Shown here: piece after piece, positions 41,367-49,642 of the stretch | Numbering within the stretch: the first letter of the stretch is position 1 | Layout: every line of letters begins with the position of its first letter | From: Rhizobium lentis | GTDB taxonomy: Bacteria; Pseudomonadota; Alphaproteobacteria; Rhizobiales; Rhizobiaceae | Assembly (NCBI RefSeq): GCF_017352135.1 | Contig: NZ_CP071454.1 | Location: forward strand, 3,993,001-4,057,000 | DNA length: 64,000 nucleotides | Reading direction: 5' to 3' | Position numbers and translations under genes: made by a program | The notes under the pieces: model-generated | Database searches by the model: none | What the model was told of the DNA's origin: nothing | The model's input: the letters and a program-made list of their open reading frames with translations, nothing else

Positions 41367-42413
41367 TCAGCGCCCCTCCCTCACAGGAGATACAGCTGCG
41401 ACGCTGCTCCTTTCGACCAGATGGCAGGAAAGCTCGACGCGGCGCCGCGGCGTCGCAAGACCCAGCATCATGTCGCGCAAGAGGTCGAGCGCGGTGGCGC
41501 CGAGTTCGCGCATCGGAATATGCACCGTCGACAGCGGCGGATTGAGAAAGGCCGATTGCGGCAAGTCGTCTATGCCCATGACGGAAACGTCCTGCGGCAC
41601 GGCATAGCCCATCGCCTGCAATCCACGCACCGCGCCGCTGGCGAGACTGTCGCCCGCCGTCAGGACGGCAGTGAAGGAAAGACCTTTGTCGCCGACAAGG
41701 CGGGTGATCGCCTCGGCGCCAAGTTCCGGCAGCCAGTCGTCGACCTCGAGCACGAGATCGGCCTCGGCCGTCAGCCCGTGATGCCGCAGGGCGTCGCGCC
41801 AGCCCTCCAGGCGCCGCTCGATCGTCCGCCGACCCGGGCGCAGCATGAAAAGGATGCGCTGATGCCCGGCCTGGATCAGCCGTTCGGCGGCGATGAAGGC
41901 AGCCGAGCGGTTGCAGGGCGTCACACTCGAAAGCCGCATATAGGGATCGTCGCTGTTGACGAGCACGACGGGCTTTCCGAGGCTGGCGGCCGCTGCCAGC
42001 ATATCCTCTTCGTCGACCGTCAGGATCAGCATGCCGCCGAAGCTCGGGTCATCCCGCACCTCGGCGACGACACGGGCTTCATCCTTCTTGTCTGTGACAG
42101 GGCGCATTGCAACCTCGATGCCGAGCGCGGCGGCGCGCGCATTCAATCCTTCGAGGACGTGGAGGGTGAACTGGTTGCGGACATAGTCGATCATCGCCGC
42201 GCCGGAGGCGACAAGCATGACCTTCTTGCCGGCCACGCTCGCCGGCAGGGCGTAGCTGACCGCACTTGCCGTTTCCAGCACCAGCTTGCGGATCTCAGGC
42301 CTGACGCCCTTTTCGCCGGCGAGCGCCCGCGACACGGTGCTGATCGATACGCCGCATCGGGCGGCGATGTCGTCCAGGCGCGCACGTCTGCCTTTTTTCT
42401 GCTCCGCGGCCAT
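41367..42413 (-). CDS. LacI-family transcriptional regulator
   Basis: A 348-residue regulator. The LacI helix-turn-helix is near residue 13 (LDDIAARCGVSISTVSRALA); the periplasmic-binding-like effector domain follows (FGGMLILTVDEEDMLA, then SVMGIDDLPQSAFLNPPLST). The start at 42413 has GAGGAG 6-11 bases upstream. It is divergent from the 838-residue protein and CUT1 transporter operon and is the likely repressor of that operon. Confidence 0.92.
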   Translation of the reverse strand: MAAEQKKGRRARLDDIAARCGVSISTVSRALAGEKGVRPEIRKLVLETASAVSYALPASVAGKKVMLVASGAAMIDYVRNQFTLHVLEGLNARAAALGIEVAMRPVTDKKDEARVVAEVRDDPSFGGMLILTVDEEDMLAAAASLGKPVVLVNSDDPYMRLSSVTPCNRSAAFIAAERLIQAGHQRILFMLRPGRRTIERRLEGWRDALRHHGLTAEADLVLEVDDWLPELGAEAITRLVGDKGLSFTAVLTAGDSLASGAVRGLQAMGYAVPQDVSVMGIDDLPQSAFLNPPLSTVHIPMRELGATALDLLRDMMLGLATPRRRVELSCHLVERSSVAAVSPVREGR

Positions 42414-42454
42414 GAGATCTCCTCGCTCCTTACTGTTATGCAAAAATCTTTCAG

Positions 42455-42465
42455 ATTGCGCAAAT
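42455..42465. promoter_or_regulatory. Possible LacI-type operator
   Basis: ATTGCGCAAAT with a perfect TTGCGCAA core (42456-42463) lies in the gap between the divergent LacI and 838-residue protein genes. LacI-family sites often have a central CG in such a palindrome. Only one copy was seen. Confidence 0.35.
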
Positions 42466-42597
42466 GGAATGCCTGTGCACAATTGTTGCGAGGAGTCCGC
42501 GGCAAGCGGCAGAGCAGGGAGGCTTTGAAGATGCGGCTTGACCGCCATCCACGCGTCGGTGTTTTTTCGCAAAGCCCCAGGCCAGAGCGGATCTGAG

Positions 42598-47486: not shown

Positions 47487-48532
47487 GCGCGGTCACGACC
47501 TTCCTCCTGCGTCGCCGCGGCCGCGGCTGGCACTGGACCGATGTCGTAACCTGGATCTGGCTGATCTCGGGCGTTTTCCTGATGTTCGGCCCGGCCGTCT
47601 GGCTGGTCTTTTCCTCGTTCAAGACGCCGGCCGCCCTTGCCGAATTCCCGCCGTCCTTCCTGCCCTATGTCACCGAGCAGGCCGTGGTGCCGGGTTACGA
47701 CAAACCATTGCCGCTCTACAACGTGACGATGCCGGATGGCAGCACCTACGTGCTTGCCGAAGTCCGCCGCATCGGCATCATGGGTCAGATGGTCGATCCA
47801 AAACAGCCTGGCGAAATCGTCAAGGTCAACATCAAGGACCGTACGCCGGTGCGTGAGGTCGAATTCGCGACCAACAACTACACCGAACCGTTCCAGCGCT
47901 TCGATTTCTTTCTGTTCCTGCGCAATTCCGTCTTTGTGACGGTCGTGGCCACGGCCATTACGCTGCTCGTCAATTCCATGGCCGCCTTCGCGCTGTCGAA
48001 ATATCAGTTCCCCGGCCGCACCGCCGTCATGCTGATGATCCTGGCGACGCTGATGGTGCCGCTCTCGGTCATCGTCGTGCCGCTCTATTCCGTCATCGGC
48101 AGCCTGAACCTCTTCGACAGCCTCTGGGGCGTCATTCTGCCGACCGTCGCCACCCCGACCGGGGTCTTCCTGCTCCGCCAATACATGCTGACCATCCCGG
48201 ACGAGCTGATCGACGCCGCGCGCATGGACAAGGCGAGCGAATGGCAGATCTACTGGCGCATCATCCTGCCGCTGTCAGCGCCGGCGCTGGCGGTGCTGGC
48301 GATCTTCTCGGTCGTCTGGCGCTGGAACGACTTCCTCTGGCCGCTGATCGTGCTGTCACGCAAGGAGCTCTATACGCTGCAGGTCGGCCTCAACGTCTAT
48401 GCCGGCGAGCTCAATGTGCAATGGCATTACATCCTCGCCATGACCGTCGTCTCGATGATTCCCGTCGTGCTGATCTTCGTCTTCCTGCAGCGCTTCATCA
48501 CCACAGGCATCGCAGGTTCCGGACTGAAATAG
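47483..48532 (+). CDS. Sugar ABC transporter permease 2 (CUT1) with enlarged periplasmic loop
   Basis: A 349-residue MalG-like permease, about 60 residues longer than usual. The extra length is between the first and second helices (from EFPPSFLPYVTEQAVV to EFATNNYTEPFQRFDF) and includes a beta-rich insert. The EAA loop reads DAARMDKASEWQIYWRIILP, and VVWRWNDFLWPLIVLSRKEL precedes the last helix. The insert may contact the binding protein. Confidence 0.92.
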   Translation: MSAVTTFLLRRRGRGWHWTDVVTWIWLISGVFLMFGPAVWLVFSSFKTPAALAEFPPSFLPYVTEQAVVPGYDKPLPLYNVTMPDGSTYVLAEVRRIGIMGQMVDPKQPGEIVKVNIKDRTPVREVEFATNNYTEPFQRFDFFLFLRNSVFVTVVATAITLLVNSMAAFALSKYQFPGRTAVMLMILATLMVPLSVIVVPLYSVIGSLNLFDSLWGVILPTVATPTGVFLLRQYMLTIPDELIDAARMDKASEWQIYWRIILPLSAPALAVLAIFSVVWRWNDFLWPLIVLSRKELYTLQVGLNVYAGELNVQWHYILAMTVVSMIPVVLIFVFLQRFITTGIAGSGLK

Positions 48533-48562
48533 GCCAGCGCCACGTATAAAACAGGAGAGTGC

Positions 48563-49642
48563 ATGAGCGGGCTCGAGCTCAGGAACATCGTCAAGAATTT
48601 CGGCGCAGTCGAGGTCATTCGCGATGTCTCGCTTGCCGTCAATGATGGCGAGTTCGTCGCTTTCGTCGGCCCGTCCGGCTGTGGAAAATCGACGCTGTTG
48701 CGGCTCATCGCCGGCCTCGACAAGCCCACCGGCGGCACGATCGCCATCGACGGCAAGGACGTCACCGCGATCGGCGCCGCCGACCGGGGCCTCGCCATGG
48801 TCTTCCAGTCCTACGCGCTCTATCCGCATATGAGTGTCAGGGAAAACCTTGCCTTCGGTCTGGAGAATACCAAGGTGGCGAAGGCCGAGATCGAGGCGCG
48901 TATCGCTGACGCCGCCCGCATGCTCGAGATCGAGCCTTTCCTTAAGCGCCGTCCGGGCCAGCTCTCCGGCGGCCAGCGCCAGCGTGTCGCGATCGGCCGC
49001 GCCATCGTTCGCCGTCCGGATGCCTTCCTGCTCGACGAGCCGCTGTCCAATCTCGACGCCGAACTCAGGGTCAGCATGCGCGCCGAGCTCGCCGCCCTCC
49101 ACGCCCGCCTGAAGGCGACGATGATCTATGTCACCCATGACCAGGTCGAGGCGATGACGCTCGCAAACCGCATCGTCGTCTTGAGAGGCGGCAAGATCGA
49201 GCAGGTGGGAACACCGCTGGAACTCTACAACAAACCGGCAAACCGCTTCGTCGCCGGCTTCATCGGCGCGCCCCATATGAATTTCCTCGAAGGCTCCATT
49301 GTCGGCCACGACGGCGGTTTCACTGAGGTCGAAACCGTCGGCGGCCACCGTCTTTCCGTTATTGCCAACGACGCGGGCCCAATCGGCGACAGGGTCAGCA
49401 TCGGCATCCGGCCACAGCACATCACCCTTGCCGACGGGGCGAGCGCGAGCAAGCTGGACACCCGCGTCACCCTGGTCGAAGAACTGGGTTCCGAAACCGT
49501 TGTCCACGCCGAAGCTGCGGGCAAGAAGCTGATCGCCGTCTTTGCCGGCCAGCAGCGCATGAAATCGGGCGACAGCCTGCCTCTGCATCTCGACCCGGCT
49601 GTGCTGCATCTCTTCGGCGAGGATGGCCGGCGTCTATCTTGA
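48563..49642 (+). CDS. Sugar ABC transporter ATP-binding protein (UgpC/MalK type)
   Basis: A 359-residue ATPase: Walker [11 protein letters not shown]-loop [11 protein letters not shown], signature [15 protein letters not shown], Walker [22 protein letters not shown], and a C-terminal TOBE domain (VSIGIRPQHI). GGAGAG lies upstream. It is very close to the ATPase at 31908, a sign of shared ancestry of the two CUT1 systems. It is the last gene of the operon. Confidence 0.95.
   Translation: MSGLELRNIVKNFGAVEVIRDVSLAVNDGEFVAFVGPSGCGKSTLLRLIAGLDKPTGGTIAIDGKDVTAIGAADRGLAMVFQSYALYPHMSVRENLAFGLENTKVAKAEIEARIADAARMLEIEPFLKRRPGQLSGGQRQRVAIGRAIVRRPDAFLLDEPLSNLDAELRVSMRAELAALHARLKATMIYVTHDQVEAMTLANRIVVLRGGKIEQVGTPLELYNKPANRFVAGFIGAPHMNFLEGSIVGHDGGFTEVETVGGHRLSVIANDAGPIGDRVSIGIRPQHITLADGASASKLDTRVTLVEELGSETVVHAEAAGKKLIAVFAGQQRMKSGDSLPLHLDPAVLHLFGEDGRRLS

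Follow-up and report, generated by a model that had tools for sequence, protein, structure and literature searches.

Heparinase III (PL12; PDB entries 5jmf, 4mmh and 4fnv) and the PL8 lyases are built from an alpha-helical toroid followed by an antiparallel beta sandwich and have conserved Asn, Tyr and His residues, and the exolytic lyases of PL15 (exoHep, 6lja; Atu3025, 3a0o) possess an extra N-terminal beta domain. In the use of pectin and glycosaminoglycans the downstream enzymes are GH105, KduI and KduD, of which KduI acts on a product derived from unsaturated uronate. We analyzed a 64,000-nucleotide stretch of the Rhizobium lentis genome (positions 3,993,001 to 4,057,000 of contig NZ_CP071454.1; here called the window) in which the gene for an 838-amino-acid protein lies between that of a LacI-family repressor and those of a CUT1 sugar importer. 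This protein is probably a cytosolic lyase of an unnamed family acting on uronic-acid oligosaccharides, an activity that is predicted.

The window protein resembles heparinase III and the PL8 lyases in its predicted order of toroid and sandwich and in having conserved Asn, Tyr and His residues, here candidates for the catalytic set, but differs from them in an identity of 6-10%, the lack of a PDB sequence match, the absence of a visible signal peptide and an additional GH2-like N-terminal domain. With the PL15 lyases it shares the extra beta domain and an Asn-His pair, a Tyr and a His at similar spacing; exoHep is described as having a signal peptide along with DUF4962 and Hepar_II_III domains, whereas the window protein has no Pfam domain. 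Orthologous operons encode the same downstream enzymes as the pectin and glycosaminoglycan pathways, but here the lyase step would fall to an unnamed family, and the window's genome has its pathway genes on separate contigs. Set beside a conventional CUT1 operon with LacI, the locus has the same solute-binding protein (SBP), two permeases, UgpC-type ATPase, LacI and operator-like site, with no notable difference.

An enzyme family without a name

The enzyme gene and the parts discussed below are located as follows (window positions):

42598-45114, forward strand: 838-amino-acid candidate lyase for oligo-uronides, family unnamed
42637-43176, forward strand: N-terminal jelly roll resembling the GH2 sugar-binding domain, residues 14-193
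43210-43515, forward strand: second beta domain, residues 205-306, from the secondary structure of the model
43543-44352, forward strand: alpha-helical toroid, residues 316-585
43855-43860, forward strand: N420-H421 of the SENH motif, invariant in all 118 rows; by analogy with PL17 and PL15, candidate carboxylate neutralizers
44032-44034, forward strand: Y479, candidate general acid, invariant in 118 of 118 rows
44182-44190, forward strand: R529-x-Y531, invariant pair, 118 of 118 rows
44371-45075, forward strand: C-terminal beta sandwich, residues 592-826, predicted model
44548-44550, forward strand: H651 (in NHPGE), candidate general base in the sandwich domain, kept in most members
44686-44688, forward strand: H697, invariant second candidate base, 118 of 118 rows

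The original prediction, made from the window's sequence, had given this reading frame its length and placed SENH at 418-421 and YEHTLRPG at 531-538, all of which is correct, and had been unable to assign the protein to a family. Our searches bear this out: Pfam (0 families, E up to 1), NCBIfam and PHROGs gave no match, a PDB sequence search with the protein was empty at E up to 10, and a family profile of 118 rows retrieved four chance matches from the PDB, the best at E 0.11. With 0 Pfam families the protein does not have the DUF4962 and Hepar_II_III domains of the PL15_2 exoheparinases. Nor does it belong with Hepar_II_III_C (PF07940) by a Pfam match or by hhalign against 20 rhizobial members (probability below 1%), a weak negative given that these comparators are themselves uncharacterized. 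In the open-licence literature, the family was named in no title or abstract start that we found.

The protein nevertheless has many relatives. At E 0.001 there were 789 homologues, and among the 120 listed those with names were called hypothetical or uncharacterized. A paralogue in the same genome is 33% identical; a search with it gave 548 proteins, and one with a haloarchaeal relative gave 1074, a set that may overlap with the 789 (120 of each were listed). Among the listed relatives of the paralogue, automatic names were heparinase II/III-like (P0143, P0182), six-hairpin alpha-L-rhamnosidase (P0145) and PA14 domain-containing (P0206, P0231, P0241), the remaining named ones being hypothetical or uncharacterized, and the organisms named among the listed matches of the haloarchaeal relative were haloarchaea, Chloroflexota, Armatimonadota and Firmicutes. 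Nearly all names seen in this large group are uninformative, so that a chemistry open to testing would be a gain for all of it.

We distinguish branch A (window type), branch B (paralogue type) and a third branch, C, and aligned 118 rows picked from the listed matches (36 A, 42 B and 40 C). The N-terminal jelly roll is absent from the 40 aligned C rows; a hint of PA14 is present at the N terminus of some relatives (P0196, precomputed; the L095 protein, E 4.9e-4, below the Pfam cut-off). One haloarchaeal relative without the N-terminal beta domains (L094:11815-13800) lies near Gfo/Idh/MocA oxidoreductase genes.

The enzyme gene is under purifying selection, with dN/dS of 0.12-0.14 in all eight pairwise comparisons with orthologues and no internal stops. 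Because there are 789 homologues, the gene order is kept in 28 of 28 loci (below) and dN/dS is so low, neither gene nor locus is a product of chance. The spread is patchy. A match to the window protein occurs in 22 of 151 genomes of the bacterial family, a few of them to fragments only; at the level of the class, 2 of 385 genomes match the paralogue, namely that of the window and another in which the match is weak and partial. In one genome (G157:C1:1698592-1699959) the match covers only residues 383-838, at the C-terminal end, the copy being shortened or in decay.

Predicted fold

An AlphaFold model based on an alignment that included distant rows (mean pLDDT 93.8, pTM 0.93) begins with a GH2-like jelly roll and a further beta domain and continues with an alpha-helical toroid and, at the C terminus, a beta sandwich, which is the beta / beta / toroid / beta order anticipated from the sequence. 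A model from 27 close sequences had pLDDT below 50 at conserved loops; in the one quoted here such values are confined to residues 49-55 and the C-terminal end. An alpha-toroid followed by an antiparallel beta sandwich places the model in the lyase fold class of PL8, 12, 15, 17, 21, 23, 35 and 39. In VIA alignment the toroid and sandwich best match heparinase III (PL12) and the PL8 hyaluronate/chondroitin lyases (363-429 residues aligned, at the identity given above), and Foldseek with the model from close sequences ranked exoHep (6lja, PL15) first. This supports the original suggestion of a toroid polysaccharide-lyase layout in a protein of unrecognized family. The protein is not a member of GH2, in which an Ig domain and a TIM-barrel catalytic domain come after the jelly roll: the jelly roll (residues 14-193) is the shared part, whereas the rest of the model includes toroid and sandwich domains and no barrel appears in its secondary structure. 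A PL42-type rhamnose-glucuronate lyase was also considered and dropped, PL42 being a beta propeller according to PMC8377490.

Candidate active-site residues

Seventeen positions are invariant in the 118 rows: D367, C368, F371, W405, E419, N420, H421, G448, W462, E473, Y479, G528, R529, Y531, Q631, P652 and H697. H651 is present in all 36 A rows, in 41 of the 42 B rows and in 26 of the 40 C rows, and position 533 is His in all 36 A rows and Lys in all 42 B rows. Of the two polar clusters singled out as conserved-looking in the original prediction, SENH held up and looks central, while YEHTLRPG mostly did not, Y531 being invariant across the family and most of its other positions varying.

By conservation and spacing, the Asn/Tyr/His set of lyases may be represented here by N420-H421, Y479, R529-x-Y531 and H697 and, where it is kept, by H651. 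The set in exoHep (PL15) is Asn336-His337, Tyr390 and His555, as given in PMC12088678, and by residue number the invariant residues and their spacing match the Asn/Tyr/His set in Table 4 of that source. Y479 follows H421 by 58 residues, compared with 53 in exoHep and 56 in Alg17c, again by residue number.

Gene neighbourhood in relatives

The genes flanking the enzyme gene in the window are these:

41367-42413, reverse strand: LacI-family repressor (PF00356, PF13377), divergent from the enzyme gene
42450-42463, forward strand: candidate LacI operator TTCAGATTGCGCAA, the sole exact copy in the genome
45178-46437, forward strand: CUT1 SBP (PF01547, PF13416; SBP_bac_1)
46449-47486, forward strand: CUT1 permease 1 (PF00528; BPD_transp_1)
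47483-48532, forward strand: CUT1 permease 2 (PF00528; BPD_transp_1)
48563-49642, forward strand: UgpC/MalK-type ATPase (PF00005, PF08402; ABC_tran/TOBE), above the cut-off of NCBIfam NF008653

Pfam and NCBIfam thus agree with the original prediction that a LacI repressor and a full CUT1 transporter surround the enzyme gene, the importer operon being complete with SBP, two permeases and a MalK/UgpC ATPase with TOBE/OB domains.

A contig scan gave 260 related loci, the best 80 of which were kept. All 28 loci of the R. leguminosarum/etli group have LacI, enzyme gene, SBP and permeases in the same order (the L022 contig ends before UgpC), and their LacI proteins are 64-67% identical to that of the Phyllobacterium operon. 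GH105, KduI and KduD were not found near the enzyme in any of these 28, with about 1.4 kb of upstream sequence only in L006, L020 and L022. In the other 52 loci, GH105 and KduI genes lie directly upstream in 51 (the exception is L084); a close KduD gene follows downstream in 22 of the 51, some contigs ending before that place. We call the partner GH105 in view of its closest PDB relatives, which include 3qwt and 4xuv, labelled GH105; the records say GH88. Annotated plasmids of Pannonibacter, Phyllobacterium, Shinella and Gemmobacter carry LacI, a GH88-family gene, kduI, the enzyme gene, SBP, two permeases and ugpC, followed in three of the four by kduD. On the roseobacter plasmids of Pseudosulfitobacter and Salipiger kduI is directly upstream, kduD nearby and a GH88-family gene present, with a TRAP transporter instead of CUT1. 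Loss of GH105-KduI in the R. leguminosarum/etli lineage was considered but is not shown by a tree of 60 rows (from 41 of the 80 loci), in which the rows lacking these genes fall outside the GH105-KduI group with support 90; the lineage may have lost the genes or never had them.

Twelve B-type loci were examined; GH105 is encoded in 11, GH28 in 8 and KduI in 3, with neither GH105 nor GH28 at L140. The paralogue's cluster in the window's genome holds GH105, GH28, regulators and CUT1 genes, as annotated also in a relative, and in P0207 and P0237 the paralogous enzyme is fused to a GH88-family (GH105) domain, making proteins of about 1190 residues. The Thioclava B-branch locus adjoins rhamnose genes. 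On a Photobacterium plasmid (L095:11983-18180) the genes after the paralogue encode, as judged by eye, a GH105-like protein, a GPH-like symporter and a ROK-like kinase, and no adjoining ABC importer was seen.

The family and GH105 also occur together across genomes. Among 60 Rhizobium genomes 22 carry the family: 18 have window-type A (G157 the C-terminal part only), one (G151) a 62% A copy and 21 have B, which accompanies A in all 18 window-type genomes. A GH88-family profile match at E 1e-80 or better is found in exactly these 22; of the remaining 38 genomes, 12 have only weak matches, at E 8.7e-7 or weaker and limited to about 100 residues of longer frames (11 of the 12 pass the Pfam cut-off), and 26 have none. 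Related strains not being independent, this co-occurrence is an association and not a test with a known error rate. Many of the 22 have another GH88 gene with a weaker match (E 1e-16 to 1e-19). In several Rhizobium genomes (for example G159:C7:353527-358210) a weak Hepar_II_III_C match lies within 5 kb of a second, distant GH88 gene, which the window's genome lacks; in G157, G159, G161 and G162 some 20-27 kb separate the pair from the paralogue.

The window's genome has one GH105 gene, adjoining the paralogue on another contig, and side by side on a third contig are genes for KduI (46%) and KduD (63%), both passing NCBIfam name cut-offs. The original prediction of a compact system of one enzyme, transporter and repressor therefore stands for the content of the operon, but not as a self-contained pathway: most related operons examined encode GH105, KduI and sometimes KduD, which are here on other contigs.

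Proposed pathway and alternatives

Given that GH105 and KduI are upstream in 51 of 52 loci outside the R. leguminosarum/etli group, that the paralogue is beside or fused to GH105 and that GH105 co-occurs in 22 of 22 genomes, the context agrees with a lyase, and the presence of GH105, KduI and KduD in the operons narrows its product to a 4,5-unsaturated uronate. The N terminus has no hydrophobic signal segment, judged by eye from the sequence, as the original prediction had said. What had been proposed there, cleavage of an imported oligosaccharide, fits an apparently cytosolic enzyme with a toroid-lyase fold tied to a CUT1 importer and to LacI with a conserved operator-like site; the cleavage itself, by beta-elimination, is what we infer. 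In such a scheme the importer would take up a short acidic oligosaccharide, from plants or perhaps microbes, which would relieve LacI repression. The uronate would be held in the cleft between toroid and sandwich, where N420 and H421 would neutralize the carboxylate, a histidine (H651 or H697) or a tyrosine would take the C5 proton, and Y479 would protonate the leaving oxygen to give a 4,5-unsaturated end. GH105 would then release the unsaturated uronate for conversion by KduI and KduD to 2-keto-3-deoxygluconate. In the window's genome the sole GH105, beside the paralogous lyase, would be shared by both lyase loci, and KduI and KduD would come from the third contig.

As to substrate, the GH28 neighbour suggests pectic fragments for branch B, and for branch A only the unsaturated uronate product is suggested. 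The solute-binding proteins have weak matches to many sugar binders (lists of 13 and 30); both lists include the oligogalacturonide binders 2uvg and 2uvh, which are the two weakest entries in the list of 13.

A saturated oligosaccharide might instead be the substrate, the protein being a glycoside hydrolase or a debranching enzyme, its GH105 partner a beta-galactosidase, and KduI and KduD serving a minor uronate only. We consider this unlikely, but several observations count against a lyase and toward such a hydrolase: NCBIfam labels all five GH88-family partner genes tested beta-galactosidase BglB, above cut-off, the N-terminal domain is GH2-like, and Foldseek with the better model fills its first 47 rows with glycosidases, through that domain, before the first lyase (3a0o) at rank 48. 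Alpha-toroids, moreover, occur in many glycosidases. The name is vulnerable too, in that a recent CAZy family could already cover the group, "unnamed" resting on the Pfam, NCBIfam and PDB searches. On the other hand, the order of toroid then sandwich is a lyase trait, as are the matches, spanning both domains, to heparinase III and PL8, KduI is directly upstream in all but one of the loci outside the leguminosarum/etli group, and the partner keeps a WDD motif, aligned with that of a YteR-like protein, which fits a uronyl hydrolase without proving it. Our preference for a lyase thus follows the VIA alignment of toroid and sandwich and the gene context, not the Foldseek ranking of the better model.

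Lyases and uronyl C5-epimerases share their first step, so that abstraction of the C5 proton might be followed by its return, the protein being an epimerase or other enolate enzyme that prepares the oligosaccharide for another lyase. This is very improbable, for the operons in the six A-type plasmid records viewed carry no annotation of a further lyase, and the GH105 fusion in P0207, without another lyase domain, fits a lyase. A lyase that in nature attacks acidic exopolysaccharide made by the bacterium itself, or else some microbial glycan, with the importer as a recycling route, we regard as rather improbable. Rhizobial exopolysaccharides contain glucuronate, the four CUT1-type plasmid records show no annotated secreted depolymerase within about 14 kb, and the two roseobacter plasmids pair the gene with a TRAP transporter and not CUT1; however, the paralogous locus encodes GH28, a pectinase family, in two-thirds of the loci examined, and that of Thioclava is next to rhamnose genes.

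If the protein is a cytosolic lyase, rhizobia would have a way to use acidic fragments of cell walls or exopolysaccharides, with its steps split over the genome in the R. leguminosarum group. Tentatively, and at somewhat less than an even chance, we propose further that it founds a poly- or oligosaccharide lyase family with a GH2-like N-terminal domain and relatives from rhizobia and roseobacters to haloarchaea and Firmicutes, and that the R. leguminosarum/etli group has two divergent members, each served by a separate importer, which have in common a single GH105 and a single KduI/KduD pair from other parts of the genome, the chromosomal lyase operon relying on probably plasmid-borne partners.

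Candidate operator and flanking genes

The 14-base sequence TTCAGATTGCGCAA at 42450-42463 is a candidate LacI operator. It is exact in 59 of 86 LacI/operon intergenic regions and present with at most two mismatches in 83, the pattern having been derived from these same 86 regions, many from close relatives; one of 1720 mononucleotide shuffles reached two mismatches and none did better. Its palindromic core, ATTGCGCAAT, gave no indication of a shared regulon, having no site with up to one mismatch in the 20 kb around kduI-kduD. One 1-mismatch site lies 5.8 kb from the paralogue, and a weaker 2-mismatch look-alike, found by eye, is in the intergenic stretch beside it; the core alone is unspecific, with three further sites of up to one mismatch in the window besides the operator.

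Comparison with the LacI of L090 makes ATG at 42413 the likely start of the repressor, rather than TTG at 42572. A run of genes for two permeases of the peptide/nickel type (Dpp/Opp-like) and for two ATPases (37816-41345), identified from their translations, ends just before this convergent gene.

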